A stretch of DNA of 64,000 bases, from the NCBI RefSeq assembly GCF_900104625.1, contig NZ_FNVZ01000004.1:1-64000 (forward strand), in the 5' to 3' direction. The stretch comes from Leptotrichia massiliensis (GTDB lineage Bacteria; Fusobacteriota; Fusobacteriia; Fusobacteriales; Leptotrichiaceae). The notes below the pieces were generated by a model. That model did no database searches and was not told where the DNA came from. It was given only the letters and a program-made list of their open reading frames with translations. Position numbers and translations under genes: made by a program. Of the stretch, positions 13,108 to 35,220 are shown piece by piece; positions within the stretch are counted from its first letter, which is position 1, and each line of letters opens with the position of its first letter.

Positions 13108-13677
13108 ATGTATCATATAAAAGATGAAGAATTTTTAAGAGGAAAAGTTCCTATGACAAAAGAGGAAATCCGTTTTGTAAGTCTTGGGAAAATGGAGATG
13201 AAAGATGATGATATTTGTCTTGACATTGGTGGCGGAACTGGTTCTGTAAGTATGGAAATGGCGAGATTTGCACGAAACGGAAAAGTTTTTGTAATTGAGA
13301 GAAATGATGAGGCAGTTGAGCTGATTCATAAAAACAAGGAAAAGTTAGGATTGGAAAATATTACTGTAATTAAAGGAATGGCTCCAGATGGACTAAAAGA
13401 CTTAAATACAAAGTTTAATAAAATTTTTATTGGAGGTTCTGCTGGAAATCTGGTGGAAATTATAAAATATTCTTATGATAACCTTGTTGACGATGGAATT
13501 TTAGTACTAAACTTTATCGTGCTGGAAAATATTTTTACGGCTGTTGAGGAATTGAAAAAATACGACTTTAAAGATGTGGATATTTGTCAGTTAATTGTGA
13601 GTAAAAATAGAAAAGTTAAAGATTTTAATATGATGATGGCAGAAAATCCGATTTATGTGATTACTGCCAAGAAATAA
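13108..13677 (+). CDS. CbiT-like SAM-dependent methyltransferase (precorrin-6Y C15-methyltransferase family)
   Basis: This 189-residue protein is a class I methyltransferase. It begins with the CbiT-type IKDEEFLRGKVPMTKEEIRF segment, which is diagnostic of the decarboxylating C15-methyltransferase branch of corrin synthesis. The SAM-binding loop is DIGGGTGS (39-46), followed by VFVIERND, the acidic strand-2 end. No other cobalamin gene is nearby, and a terminator follows, so the gene is isolated. It may act on a corrin precursor or have been recruited to another substrate. The family is clear; the substrate is open. Confidence 0.8.
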   Translation: MYHIKDEEFLRGKVPMTKEEIRFVSLGKMEMKDDDICLDIGGGTGSVSMEMARFARNGKVFVIERNDEAVELIHKNKEKLGLENITVIKGMAPDGLKDLNTKFNKIFIGGSAGNLVEIIKYSYDNLVDDGILVLNFIVLENIFTAVEELKKYDFKDVDICQLIVSKNRKVKDFNMMMAENPIYVITAKK

Positions 13678-13749: not shown

Positions 13750-13814
13750 AGACAGACAAAATATGTCCTTTATAAAAAGTATAATGTAAAAAATATTATA
13801 AGGAGATAATTATT

Positions 13815-14915
13815 ATGAGTAATTTAAAATTAACTGAAAATGATGCTTTTTACAATATGAAATTTGATAATGATATTTTTTTGTATTGGATGTTAAAATG
13901 GTTAAAAGTCGATACTACAAATAATAGTAATAAAAAAGCTTTAAAAAATATGGCAAAAAAATTCGTTGAGGAAATTTTAGGACAGAAACTGAATACGAAA
14001 GATATTGAAATATGTTATTCTAATTTTTATATTGGGAATGACTATGAGGATTTTATTAATAGAATTCTAAATGAATACACACTTTTATTTATTGTGAATA
14101 AAAAGAAAAAGAGCAATAGAAAATATATATTTTTCAAATGTTTTGACTACGACGAATTTTCACCATATTTTTTTGAATATAATCAAGAACTAGTTCAATT
14201 ACTTAAAATATATGAAAATTTAGGAAATAATGAGACAGATAAAATAAAAATCGTATATATTACTCCTGATAAAATTTCTAGATATGAAAAAGAAGAAATA
14301 GGAGAAAAAATTATGATGTATGACGGAGAAAGACTTTTAGAATTTTTCAAAACTTTTAAAAAAGACATTGATGACAGTATTTTTGATAGTTATTATAACC
14401 AGCTCATGCGAGAAGTAAGTGAAGAAGATTATGACTCTTTTAATGTTTCAGCACTATACAGTATTTTGGAGTGGTATTTTGATAAAAAAAGAAAAAACTA
14501 TGATGTATATAGAAATGATTACTGTATAAAGTGGATAAAAGATGAATTTTTTGTAGAATGTATATATAAAAAAAATAGAAATAGAGAATTTGATATACTG
14601 TTTGTGTTAAATTGGTTTCATCTTGATGAATTGCAAGAAGATATGTTTGAATCAGTTCAACGTGAATTAAAAAATATATTTCCAGATTTTCAAAAAATTT
14701 ATTTGGAAGAAGTTGACTTAAAAGAGAAAGAAGTTCCATTATTTTATTTAAAAGTAGATAAAGATGCTTCGGTGAGTAAAATAAAGAAAATTTTGGATGA
14801 GATAACAGAAAAAATAGAAAAATTTAATGAGGCGAGAGGTAGTTTAGATATAAAAGATGAATACGATAAATATATTAAAGATGAAAGGCGAAAAGGTGGT
14901 ATTCGGTTTTGGTAA
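13815..14915 (+). CDS. Degenerate paralogue of the PD-(D/E)XK protein at 16722 (function unknown)
   Basis: This 366-residue protein has no family I recognise directly, but it lines up with the nuclease-like protein at 16722-17873. Both begin with a D-x-F-x-x-W-x-x-x-W block, then a basic helix ending in MAKKFVEEILGQKL (AIDFIEKMSGEKL in the other). Later, IVYITPDK...LLEFFKTF...YYNQL parallels VVYYKIYD...LLEKYKNS...YYNYL. Where the paralogue has the catalytic IIEDK, this one reads FIVNKKKK, so the acidic E-x-K residues appear lost. It has a good AAGGAG ribosome site and is uninterrupted, so it is not an obvious pseudogene. It could be a structural partner, an inhibitor or simply a diverged copy. 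Confidence 0.6.
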   Translation: MSNLKLTENDAFYNMKFDNDIFLYWMLKWLKVDTTNNSNKKALKNMAKKFVEEILGQKLNTKDIEICYSNFYIGNDYEDFINRILNEYTLLFIVNKKKKSNRKYIFFKCFDYDEFSPYFFEYNQELVQLLKIYENLGNNETDKIKIVYITPDKISRYEKEEIGEKIMMYDGERLLEFFKTFKKDIDDSIFDSYYNQLMREVSEEDYDSFNVSALYSILEWYFDKKRKNYDVYRNDYCIKWIKDEFFVECIYKKNRNREFDILFVLNWFHLDELQEDMFESVQRELKNIFPDFQKIYLEEVDLKEKEVPLFYLKVDKDASVSKIKKILDEITEKIEKFNEARGSLDIKDEYDKYIKDERRKGGIRFW

Positions 14916-14942: not shown

Positions 14943-14970
14943 TTGACAAAATAAGAAATAAAGTTATAAT
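14943..14970 (+). promoter_or_regulatory. Consensus promoter for the WYL / FtsZ-like / nuclease operon
   Basis: TTGACA (14943-14948) and TATAAT (14965-14970), both perfect, with a 16-base spacer, 38 bases before the WYL gene start. It begins 27 bases after the preceding gene's stop and would drive the next three genes. A regulator at the start of the operon suggests autoregulation. Confidence 0.8.
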
Positions 14971-15008
14971 TAAAGCATAGAATAAAAAAATGTACGAAAG
15001 GCTTGATT

Positions 15009-15956
15009 ATGGCGGAAAAAAATCAAAATTCTGAAGAAAAATCAATTAGAATACTAAAAATAATAAAAAGGTTGTATCAGAAGGAAATACTAAATGGAAC
15101 TGATTTAGCTAACGAATTTAATGTTGATATAAAGACTATACAAAGAGATATAGAAACTTTGAGAGCCTATTTTTTGGAAGAAAATGGAGCAGAAATAAAG
15201 TATTCAAAATCTAAAAAAGGGTATTATCTTGAAGAAAACAGCGAAACGTCTTTTACCAATGAAGAGCTTTTAGCAATAAGTAAAATTATACTTGAAAGCA
15301 GGGCATTTAACAAAAATGAAACTGAAACATTAATAAATAAGTTAATTAATCACTCATCAGGAAATGACAGAGAAACAATAAAAGGTCTTATCAATAGCGA
15401 AAAATCCAATTATATCCCTTTACAGCACGGACAAAATCTGCTTACAGTTATCTGGAATTTAGCACAGAATATAAAAAATCAGGAATTAATAAATATAAAT
15501 TACACTACAAAAGATAAACAAGGTAAAAATTACAATATAAAGCCTTTGTCCATAATGTTTTCAGAATATTATTTTTATTTAATTGCATACATCGAGAACA
15601 AAGAAGAGTACCCTGCAATTTTAAGGATTGATAGAATTACTGAAATCGAAAATACTGGCAAGAAATTTAAGATTTTGAATTATTCTGAAAAATTTAAAGA
15701 TGGTGAATTTAGAAAATATATACATTTTATGCACTCAGGGCCTCTTACAAGAATAGAATTTAAATATAGAGGCTATATCGAGTATGTGCTTGATAAATTT
15801 CCAACTGCAGAAATACTGGATGAAAAAATAGTTAAAGAAAATAATAGGAAAATTACAGTTTATACTGTGAGAATCGAAGTTTATGGAAGTTTTGGAGCAG
15901 AAATGTGGCTACGAAGTCAGGGAAATTATGTTATTGAATACAAAATTTTAAAATAA
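15009..15956 (+). CDS. WYL-domain transcriptional regulator
   Basis: This protein of about 315 residues has an N-terminal DeoR/HTH_11-type winged helix (KSIRILKIIKRLYQKEIL, then LANEFNVDIKTIQRDIETLR as the recognition helix) and a middle/C-terminal WYL domain, here with FYLIAY at the signature and the usual LRIDRI strand. WYL regulators bind nucleic-acid or nucleotide-like ligands and often control defence or DNA-damage genes. The ATG at 15009 is preferred to a TTG two codons earlier because the GAAAGG ribosome site is then well spaced. It is first gene after a consensus promoter, with the FtsZ-like gene 24 bases downstream. Confidence 0.9.
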   Translation: MAEKNQNSEEKSIRILKIIKRLYQKEILNGTDLANEFNVDIKTIQRDIETLRAYFLEENGAEIKYSKSKKGYYLEENSETSFTNEELLAISKIILESRAFNKNETETLINKLINHSSGNDRETIKGLINSEKSNYIPLQHGQNLLTVIWNLAQNIKNQELININYTTKDKQGKNYNIKPLSIMFSEYYFYLIAYIENKEEYPAILRIDRITEIENTGKKFKILNYSEKFKDGEFRKYIHFMHSGPLTRIEFKYRGYIEYVLDKFPTAEILDEKIVKENNRKITVYTVRIEVYGSFGAEMWLRSQGNYVIEYKILK

Positions 15957-15980: not shown

Positions 15981-16688
15981 ATGGAAAAAATACCAAAAAT
16001 AAAAATTATAAGTTTAGGAGAAACAGCTCTAAGCACTATTGAGAAAGAAATAATTACACATGAAAATATAAGCATTATTACAATTAAAAATGACTACAAA
16101 GATTTAAAAATAAATTTTCAAGATACAGATGTAATTTTGATAATTTTAAACACATATTTTGAAAATGATAAAAATTTTGCCTTAGATATAATTAGAAGCA
16201 CTGAAAAAAACGATATTTTTACTGGAATTTACGATATTGGAAATGGCTATACCGACCTATTTGATTCAAAAACAAACTTTATCATAAAATGCAAATCTGC
16301 CGAAGATTTAAAAAATGGAATCAACGGAATAACAAAAACTTTAACAGTAAAAGGAATGGTTACTCTTGATTTAGCTGACTTAAAAACTGTATTTCAAAAA
16401 ACCTCAAAATCTTTTGTAATTTTTGAAAAAGGAAATTTAGAAACTTTTGATGATTTCCTGCAAAATCTAAAACTAAAGCTGGAAACTTTTGATAAAAATA
16501 AAACTTATAAAATATTTTTGAACATAACAGCAGGAAAAAATATCGAATTGACTCAGATAAAAAATGTCGCTAAAATAATGTCTGATATTCTTAATGAGCA
16601 ATCATTTCTTTGGGGACTGCAAATATATCCAGAAAATGAAAATTTCATAAATATTATTGCTTACATTGTGGAAGATTCAGTTAAATAA
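15981..16688 (+). CDS. Truncated FtsZ-like protein lacking the GTP-binding motif
   Basis: This 235-residue protein's second half follows FtsZ closely. VKGMVTLDLADLKTVF (123-138) matches the FtsZ T7 (synergy) loop and helix GLxNxDFADVxTVM; D130 and D133 stand at the two catalytic aspartates and T128 replaces the usual Asn. IFLNITAGKNIEL (178-190) matches VLVNITAGxDLxL of the C-terminal domain. The N-terminal part begins KIKIISLG like FtsZ's first strand but is only about 120 residues. It has no GGGTGTG signature: the matching place reads IILNTYFENDK. So it could contact FtsZ through the T7 face but not bind GTP. The remote similarity is my reading and needs a profile search. Ribosome site AAGGAG; 33 bases before the nuclease gene. 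Confidence 0.7.
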   Translation: MEKIPKIKIISLGETALSTIEKEIITHENISIITIKNDYKDLKINFQDTDVILIILNTYFENDKNFALDIIRSTEKNDIFTGIYDIGNGYTDLFDSKTNFIIKCKSAEDLKNGINGITKTLTVKGMVTLDLADLKTVFQKTSKSFVIFEKGNLETFDDFLQNLKLKLETFDKNKTYKIFLNITAGKNIELTQIKNVAKIMSDILNEQSFLWGLQIYPENENFINIIAYIVEDSVK

Positions 16689-16721: not shown

Positions 16722-17873
16722 ATGGAAAGAAATAATATTTTTAATTTTGCAACATCAGAATTGTCACAAGATGCTTTTATATGTTGGTTATGCAACTGGG
16801 TAAATTTTGATGATAATGATTTATCAGAAGATGAGAAAAAATTAAAAGAGCTTGCAATTGACTTTATTGAAAAAATGTCAGGTGAAAAACTTGGAGATAG
16901 AAAAGTAAATATAAAAAGACAATATCAGAAAATAGATGTATTATTGGAAATTCAAAACAAAACAGAATTTATAACTAAGGAAGATAAGAAAGATAAGAAA
17001 ATTCCTGTAGTAGACATGTATGTAATAATAGAAGATAAAGTGGGAACAGGTTTACATAGTAATCAGCAGAAAACATATAGAGATATAATATCTGAAAAAA
17101 ATGAAAGTAGGGCTAAAATAAAAGTAGTTTATTATAAAATATACGATGAAGATAATATGGAAAGATTAAAAGAGGATGGTATAGATATAATATTTGAAAG
17201 AAAAGATATGCTAGCATTATTAGAAAAATATAAAAATAGTTTTAATAATATTCTAGTTGAAGATTATTATAATTATTTAAACAATATAGAAAAAGATGTA
17301 AATTCATATATAGATAAAAAATTAGAAGACTGGAATTCAAACTGTTATATCGGATTTTTTAAAGAATTAAAAAACGAAAAAAATTTATTAGAACATGCTA
17401 TTGGAAGACAAAAAGATTGTAGTTGGGGTTATGTGAATAACTCATCAGGTGGATTTATGGGAATGTGGTGGTTTCCTTTAAAAATGGATGAAATATCTCA
17501 AGTAACTAAAAAATTTCAATTATGGCAAAATCAGATAGAACTTAATAATGACTTGTATCTTCAAATTGAACAATTTTATAAAAAAGAAAAAGAGATATAT
17601 AATAAGAAAAATATAATTGCTGTAAAATATTCATTGGGAGATAAAGATGATGAAAAATATGATGAAAAAGTAAAAATTTCTTCTGAAATTAGAAATAAAA
17701 TTTATGAAGAATTAAAAGGAAAATTGAAAGAAAAAGGATTTGAGTTTTACAAAAAGAGATTTGTAGCAGGTCGGTATATGACAGTAGGATATTTCGAATT
17801 TGAAAATATTGATGATTGTAAAGATAAAATAAAAATCCTTCAATATGCTTTAAATCTTTTGTTAAAAATTTAG
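16722..17873 (+). CDS. PD-(D/E)XK nuclease superfamily protein (PDDEXK_4-like)
   Basis: This 383-residue protein has a leading D-A-F-x-x-W-L-x-x-W block (about 17-26). The nuclease core follows: KIDVLLEI (about 70-77, D72 as first acidic residue), MYVIIEDKVGTG (99-110, E104 and K106 as the E-x-K pair) and Q115 followed by KTY. This is the arrangement of the PDDEXK_4 family found in defence-associated and orphan nucleases. The C-terminal half (about 190-383) has no recognised domain and includes a Trp/Gly-rich patch, MGMWWFPLKM. It is last in the WYL operon, 33 bases after the FtsZ-like gene, and a MITE-like repeat starts 10 bases after its stop. DNA or RNA as substrate is unknown. Confidence 0.75.
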   Translation: MERNNIFNFATSELSQDAFICWLCNWVNFDDNDLSEDEKKLKELAIDFIEKMSGEKLGDRKVNIKRQYQKIDVLLEIQNKTEFITKEDKKDKKIPVVDMYVIIEDKVGTGLHSNQQKTYRDIISEKNESRAKIKVVYYKIYDEDNMERLKEDGIDIIFERKDMLALLEKYKNSFNNILVEDYYNYLNNIEKDVNSYIDKKLEDWNSNCYIGFFKELKNEKNLLEHAIGRQKDCSWGYVNNSSGGFMGMWWFPLKMDEISQVTKKFQLWQNQIELNNDLYLQIEQFYKKEKEIYNKKNIIAVKYSLGDKDDEKYDEKVKISSEIRNKIYEELKGKLKEKGFEFYKKRFVAGRYMTVGYFEFENIDDCKDKIKILQYALNLLLKI

Positions 17874-34879: not shown

Positions 34880-34904
34880 TTTGTTTCACCTCCTTATAAT
34901 AAAA

Positions 34905-35040
34905 ACCTCTGAAACAAAAACAATAAGCCCAGAGGTATCATACTATAAAAATATCTATTATTTAATTTTAATATCTATTTATAATAATACTTACCTCGGT
35001 AGGGTTTAAAGAAATTTTATTCTACCTACTGTCTTTGGTT
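34905..35040 (-). promoter_or_regulatory. L10 leader (autoregulatory RNA upstream of rplJ)
   Basis: On the minus strand ACAGTAGGT (near 35032-35024) pairs with the segment ACCCTACCGAGGTAAG (around 35004-34989). This is the CAGUAGGU...CCUACCGAGGUAA signature of L10-binding leaders. Further down, ACCTCTG (34934-34928) pairs with CAGAGGT (34914-34908) followed by TTTTTATT, a terminator-like stem just before the rplJ ribosome site. This fits repression by L10/L12 through attenuation or occlusion of the ribosome site. The rest of 35041-35220 is AT-rich, with no gene seen. Confidence 0.85.
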
Positions 35041-35220
35041 ATATTACATTTGATTTATATAGTTATAAACCAATATATAGTATTATACTACAATTTTAAC
35101 AAAATTGCAAGTGTTTTTCATTTTTTTATTAATTTATTGAAAAAACACCTTTAAATTATGGTATAAATTACCGAATAGAAAAATCTACTCGGTAATAAAA
35201 ATTATTATTAAGATTGTTTA

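Follow-up and report, generated by a model that had tools for sequence, protein, structure and literature searches.

An FtsZ paralogue without a nucleotide site in a horizontally exchanged WYL-nuclease cassette of Leptotrichia

In Leptotrichia, a horizontally exchanged nuclease cassette under a WYL regulator carries an accessory gene for a protein of 235 amino acids (Z235), a rapidly diverged FtsZ paralogue without a nucleotide site. The gene was found in a 64,000-nucleotide stretch of Leptotrichia massiliensis DNA, referred to here as the window. A first-pass annotation had described the protein as a truncated relative of FtsZ and proposed that it could cap the end of FtsZ filaments. Membership of a mobile WYL-nuclease cassette alters the likely biology of Z235 compared with that proposal, and the function of the protein is discussed below in this light.

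Homology to FtsZ and predicted fold

The open reading frame had been placed correctly (15981-16688, forward strand), and its likeness to FtsZ is borne out by several searches. A profile search, named beforehand as a check, gave a significant match of the NCBIfam model TIGR00065 (ftsZ) to residues 109-226 (E=5.6e-9), while FtsZ chains in the PDB match residues 90-228 (E=2e-7) and phmmer pairs Z235 with the FtsZ of its own genome (E ~1e-12). With PDB, phmmer and TIGR00065 matches well above chance, chance similarity can be ruled out. The divergence is nevertheless large: at 35.8 bits the protein stays below the TIGR00065 equivalog cut-off of 295.2, and the Pfam FtsZ_C match is sub-threshold (16.8 versus 27 bits). 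In a tree of the C-terminal domain, Z235 forms a long-branch clade among FtsZ paralogues, and its origin within them is not resolved by the tree.

Like FtsZ (TIGR00065; Pfam Tubulin and FtsZ_C), Z235 has a two-domain fold, the T7 aspartates, the H10 NITAG region and the profile match. Residues D130 and D133 align with both catalytic aspartates of FtsZ, as the first-pass annotation had it; among 31 aligned FtsZ-family rows, D133 never varies and D130 hardly does. Unlike FtsZ, Z235 lacks the GGGTGTG signature, whose absence had been noted and whose aligned columns read YFENDKN. In the alignment the nucleotide loops T3, T5 and T6 are missing as well, T4 is lost and T1 is down to one glycine. A complete GTP site, whose presence had been named beforehand as something that would refute the proposal, is found nowhere in the protein. 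The C-terminus falls just past the last strand, leaving neither the C-terminal linker nor the conserved peptide, while the host FtsZ ends in DFVLPPFFEE. A further departure concerns the T7 asparagine (N208 in Staphylococcus aureus), which is Thr128 in Z235 of the window type and Asn in the version of genome G004, which is 48% identical.

An AlphaFold2 model of Z235 (pLDDT 85.7, pTM 0.84) was built from an alignment with related Leptotrichia proteins that contained true FtsZ rows, which may favour the FtsZ fold. Foldseek aligns the model to whole solved FtsZ structures (E=9e-13; TM normalised by query length, ~0.72-0.82), so that the predicted fold, a second check named in advance, agrees with that of FtsZ rather than differing from it. 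Since the alignment spans the whole of FtsZ, the N-terminal domain is shrunken and not absent; in the model it is Rossmann-like, without a nucleotide site. The earlier description of a protein with the T7 side only must be amended accordingly: the T7-side surface is kept and the nucleotide site is lost, but both FtsZ domains are matched. With both domains present in the AlphaFold2 model and the Foldseek match, a truncated FtsZ C-terminal domain alone is ruled out.

The face of FtsZ that is retained

In FtsZ filaments, H10, S9, H8 and T7 of the upper subunit contact H6-H7, T5, T3 and H1/H2 of the lower subunit (PMC8936486). The upper-subunit, or T7-side, elements of Z235 were counted as H7-T7-H8-S8-H10-S9. 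Over these elements the protein is identical to the host FtsZ at 31/77 positions (40%). Identity is 14-17% elsewhere, with 7/50 positions over the remainder of the C-terminal domain (Fisher p=0.0015 against the T7-side elements) and 17/99 over the N-terminal part, where the alignment is uncertain. True FtsZ orthologues show the opposite order, with the T7-side elements least conserved (68-71% versus 84-98%). The remaining likeness to FtsZ is concentrated on the T7-side face, and this retention is the strongest indication that the face still matters in Z235. Within the Z235 family the picture is different. Between the versions of the host genome (G000) and G004, the N-terminal part is best conserved (51/93) and the T7-side elements are identical at 31/77 positions, while the host FtsZs of the two genomes are 92% identical.

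Other FtsZ-family proteins of Leptotrichia

Z235 is one of five FtsZ-family proteins in the host genome. The canonical FtsZ has 373 residues, and the other three paralogues have 325, 282 and 305, with GEKTGTP, SEKKNNE and GGATGSG, respectively, at the signature. All except the canonical protein are without linker and tail. The four loci other than that of Z235 lie at G000 C1:38987, C3:83134, C3:84317 and C5:880543 (L060, L061, L062), and the genes of the 325-residue and 282-residue paralogues are adjacent. Across Leptotrichia, three to five FtsZ-family proteins are found per genome, all copies counted. A search of the literature for Leptotrichia FtsZ, or for multiple FtsZ-family proteins in the genus, returned no publication.

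Additional FtsZ copies are documented in other bacteria. Agrobacterium has three FtsZ homologues, only one of which carries the linker and C-terminal peptide (PMC13170164). Z235 resembles these truncated paralogues in that it accompanies a full-length FtsZ and itself has neither linker nor C-terminal peptide; it differs from them in lacking the GTP site too and in its location in a mobile WYL-nuclease cassette. FtsZl1 and FtsZl2 keep the nucleotide-binding core with the T1 and T4 loops, and FtsZl1 has no recognisable T6-H7 region or FtsZ-type C-terminal domain (PMC2875224). Like these two, Z235 is a divergent member of the FtsZ superfamily beside a normal FtsZ, but with the opposite pattern, as it is the nucleotide core that has been lost.

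Organisation of the cassette

The cassette consists of four genes on the same strand in the order nuc366, WYL regulator, Z235 and nuclease (Table 1).

Table 1. Positions of the cassette genes, control elements and Z235 motifs in the window.
Feature	Position	Strand	Remarks
Palindrome GACA-N5-TGTC (GACAAAATATGTC), candidate WYL operator	13755..13767	+	Directly upstream of TATAAT box; putative function
Gene 1, nuc366, degenerate PDDEXK_4 nuclease paralogue (pseudo-nuclease)	13815..14915	+	BLASTP and motif loss
Sigma-70 promoter TTGACA-16-TATAAT	14943..14970	+	Upstream of WYL gene; 12/12 match, best of scan
Gene 2, HTH_11 + WYL transcription regulator, 317 aa, TTG start	15003..15956	+	Pfam, PADLOC
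Gene 3, Z235, 235 aa FtsZ paralogue	15981..16688	+	T7-side face, shrunken N-terminal domain
T7 loop and helix H8, residues 123-138 (VKGMVTLDLADLKTVF)	16347..16394	+	D130, D133 at catalytic positions; Thr128 replaces T7 Asn
NITAG strand S8 and start of H10, residues 178-190	16512..16550	+	Alignment
Gene 4, PDDEXK_4-like nuclease with IIEDK motif	16722..17873	+	Pfam PDDEXK_4 0.0097

The WYL regulator that had been reported beside the 235-residue frame is confirmed by Pfam (HTH_11, 2.4e-8; WYL, 9.6e-9) and PADLOC (WYL, 1.1e-22), and has no sequence match to any solved structure, CapW and BrxR included. The TATAAT box of its promoter is kept in all cassettes, and the -35 element is variable. The upstream palindrome may be the WYL operator of the cassette. 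Its pattern occurs twice in the 64 kb (0.39 expected) and is kept in the aligned cassettes that retain the region, including that of G019, which has no Z235; it is lost in G005, and the G004 cassette does not cover it. Three further regulators, 46-49% identical to this one, lie beside other multi-gene clusters (L132 7949-8881, L134 8365-9312 and L133 8605-9576), which include putative dynamin-type GTPases, judged by their P-loop sequence alone. Far downstream in the window (34891-35056, reverse strand), an Rfam L10 leader match barely exceeds the gathering score (45.7 versus 44 bits).

Of the two outer genes, nuc366 is related to gene 4 (BLASTP E=5e-6) and has lost the IIEDK motif in the alignment. 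The structural model of nuc366 is poor and a structure search with it returned nothing, so the label of pseudo-nuclease rests on sequence. Among 98 Fusobacteriota genomes the gene is essentially limited to these cassettes; it is broken in G003 and G008 and was not found in G004. The fourth position is occupied by a PDDEXK_4-like gene in G000, G003, G005, G010 and G022 (373-402 residues where intact) and, as a two-ORF version, in G007, and by an Mrr_cat gene in G002, G006 and G008 and, in shortened form, in G004. The Pfam matches to PDDEXK_4 (0.00043 in G022) lie below the cut-off, while Mrr_cat exceeds it in G008 (2.7e-5). DNA similarity between the two types ends at the start of gene 4, and the nuclease slot is exchangeable between a PDDEXK_4 and an Mrr type. 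Z235 itself is always flanked by the WYL gene on one side and the nuclease on the other, tightly spaced and on the same strand, and most copies keep its own ribosome-binding site.

With an HTH and WYL regulator beside restriction-type nucleases, and with a conserved upstream palindrome as candidate operator, the cassette resembles the CapW-CBASS and BrxR-BREX operons; unlike these, it contains no CBASS or BREX genes. PADLOC found no known defence system in it, only the WYL protein and weak matches to PDC-S26, PDC-S02 and AbiEii. In the literature, no FtsZ-like component was found among reports of WYL-regulated defence operons, and a search for FtsZ-like defence proteins found none.

Distribution, transfer and selection

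Among the 98 Fusobacteriota genomes, Z235 is carried only by Leptotrichia and one neighbouring genus, in nine intact copies of the WYL-Z235-nuclease cassette and one broken copy. The broken gene is that of L. hongkongensis, and Z235 is absent from G001, G009, G011 and G012. The G019 cassette (L130 5975-9221) has nuc366-like, WYL and Mrr genes without Z235, and retains the ribosome-binding site before gene 4. In the window, the cassette is preceded by a gene at 13108-13677. In G006 only 78 bp from the 3' end of this gene remain beside the cassette (G006:C1:488921-488998, L094) and the full gene lies elsewhere, which marks a rearrangement scar.

Z235 is 100% identical in nucleotides (rounded) between G022 and G002, G003 and G007, while the host FtsZs of G022 and G007, which belong to two genera, are 68% identical in amino acids and 78% in nucleotides. 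Such identity of Z235 against 68% for the host FtsZ indicates recent transfer. Eight cassettes carry Z235 genes that are 92-100% identical, paired with two unrelated nuclease types. When cassettes of the two types are compared, most genomes show 92-99% identity over the stretch that runs from the C-terminal half of the WYL gene to the end of Z235, compared with ~61-82% for nuc366, and this far higher identity points to recombination centred on Z235. Closely related pairs show purifying selection on the gene (dN/dS 0.06-0.35), which is weaker in comparison with G004 (~0.5). Searches of 50,697 phage records, of 72,556 plasmids and of IMG/VR gave no match to Z235, which rules out that it is a phage or plasmid gene of these collections.

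Possible functions of Z235

We favour, tentatively, the view that Z235 is an induced, SulA-like brake on division that acts via its T7-side face. WYL proteins repress defence operons, as documented for CapW (PMC9122588) and BrxR (PMC9122601), and the WYL protein here would likewise keep the cassette low until DNA damage or infection induces it. Z235 would then be made together with the nuclease and would dock, by its T7-side face, on the nucleotide face of FtsZ subunits. Lacking a nucleotide face itself, it would take the FtsZ monomers out of use, perhaps also capping the non-growing end of filaments, and division would pause while the nuclease acts. Such a brake would be made from FtsZ itself and would bind the face opposite to that bound by SulA. 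SulA and MciZ attach to FtsZ at its T7-side surface, and the Gp0.4 protein of phage T7 does likewise in an AlphaFold3 prediction (PMC13423816). The proposed output, reduced FtsZ assembly, is the same as theirs; in contrast to them, Z235 carries this surface, and its target would be either the other face of FtsZ or the inhibitors.

The proposed brake is supported by the homology and fold, by the loss of the nucleotide loops alongside both kept aspartates and the kept T7-side face, and by the presence in that face of the H10, S9, H8 and T7 elements that the upper filament subunit uses (PMC8936486). The cassette context with its swappable nuclease, the recent transfer, the purifying selection, the promoter and the conserved palindrome support it as well. 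Several observations stand against it. FtsZ mutations of the bottom (T7) interface are reported to be toxic and to prevent division, while those of the top interface are reported to be non-toxic (PMC8936486). The Thr in place of the T7 Asn also counts against it, as the N208L substitution abolishes assembly of S. aureus FtsZ (PMC8936486). The divergence of the T7-side face between Z235 versions whose host FtsZs are 92% identical would be odd if the partner were the host FtsZ. The G019 cassette without Z235, the missing PADLOC system match and the weaker constraint relative to G004 speak against it too.

A close rival, although itself rather unlikely, is that Z235 is a decoy which shows a copied T7-side surface to phage FtsZ inhibitors; these would bind it in place of FtsZ or in addition to it, and in this manner Z235 would spare FtsZ or signal infection to the regulator or nuclease of the cassette. 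Z235 has kept the face to which SulA and MciZ bind and Gp0.4 is predicted to bind, and immune sensing of Gp0.4 and FtsZ has a precedent in CapRel-Ebc (PMC13423816). A decoy could dispense with the GTP site, which is what Z235 has lost; the setting of a WYL regulator with exchangeable nucleases is suitable, and the divergence of the face between Z235 versions would fit an arms race. However, with this face 40% identical to that of the host FtsZ, an inhibitor would have to accept both. We know of no FtsZ inhibitor from a Leptotrichia phage, and a coupling to the nuclease or WYL protein is hypothetical. In its fuller form, which we also consider improbable, Z235 would be an FtsZ pared to the surface that inhibitors of phage and of the SulA type grip, placed in a mobile immune cassette, where it would detect or soak up phage attack on cell division and be coupled to swappable nucleases under WYL control.

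It is similarly unlikely that the fold has been repurposed altogether, so that Z235 no longer acts on FtsZ or its inhibitors but assists the nuclease or pseudo-nuclease of the cassette as a partner, scaffold or antitoxin, for the most part by way of its remodelled N-terminal domain. The high conservation of the N-terminal part within the family and the constant, tight position between the WYL gene and the nuclease would be accounted for. This would, however, leave the excess retention of the T7 side unexplained, and near-identical Z235 proteins accompany two unrelated nuclease types while G019 keeps a nuclease without Z235. These last two observations make a dedicated nuclease antitoxin unlikely. 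The end-capper of the first-pass annotation, which would halt the growth of FtsZ filaments, is possible but weakened, and we regard it as improbable. It agrees with the kept T7-side face and aspartates and the lost nucleotide face, but FtsZ growth has been assigned to the T7-exposing end, so that a subunit with the T7 side only would occupy the nucleotide-exposing, non-growing end and would resemble the non-toxic top-defective mutants (PMC8936486). The divergence of the T7-side face despite closely similar host FtsZs is a further difficulty. Just as doubtful is a decaying FtsZ duplicate that hitchhikes in a recombining cassette: the broken gene of L. hongkongensis, the four genomes without it and the dN/dS relative to G004 would be expected, whereas nine intact reading frames, the purifying selection seen among close pairs, the conservation of the catalytic aspartates and a ribosome-binding site kept in most copies would not.

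Implications

The setting of Z235, an FtsZ without a GTP site in an exchanged WYL-nuclease cassette, is more interesting than the capping originally proposed for it. Leptotrichia genomes emerge as carriers of up to five FtsZ-family proteins each, among which loss of the GTP site is graded. As a natural FtsZ that has the T7-side surface and no nucleotide site, Z235 would be a tool for the debate on filament polarity and capping. The cassette suggests a link between antiviral-type defence and the control of cell division, and FtsZ paralogues of this kind within a nuclease cassette would tie DNA-targeting defence to the control of division, whether they serve as an inbuilt checkpoint or as a lure for phage FtsZ inhibitors.
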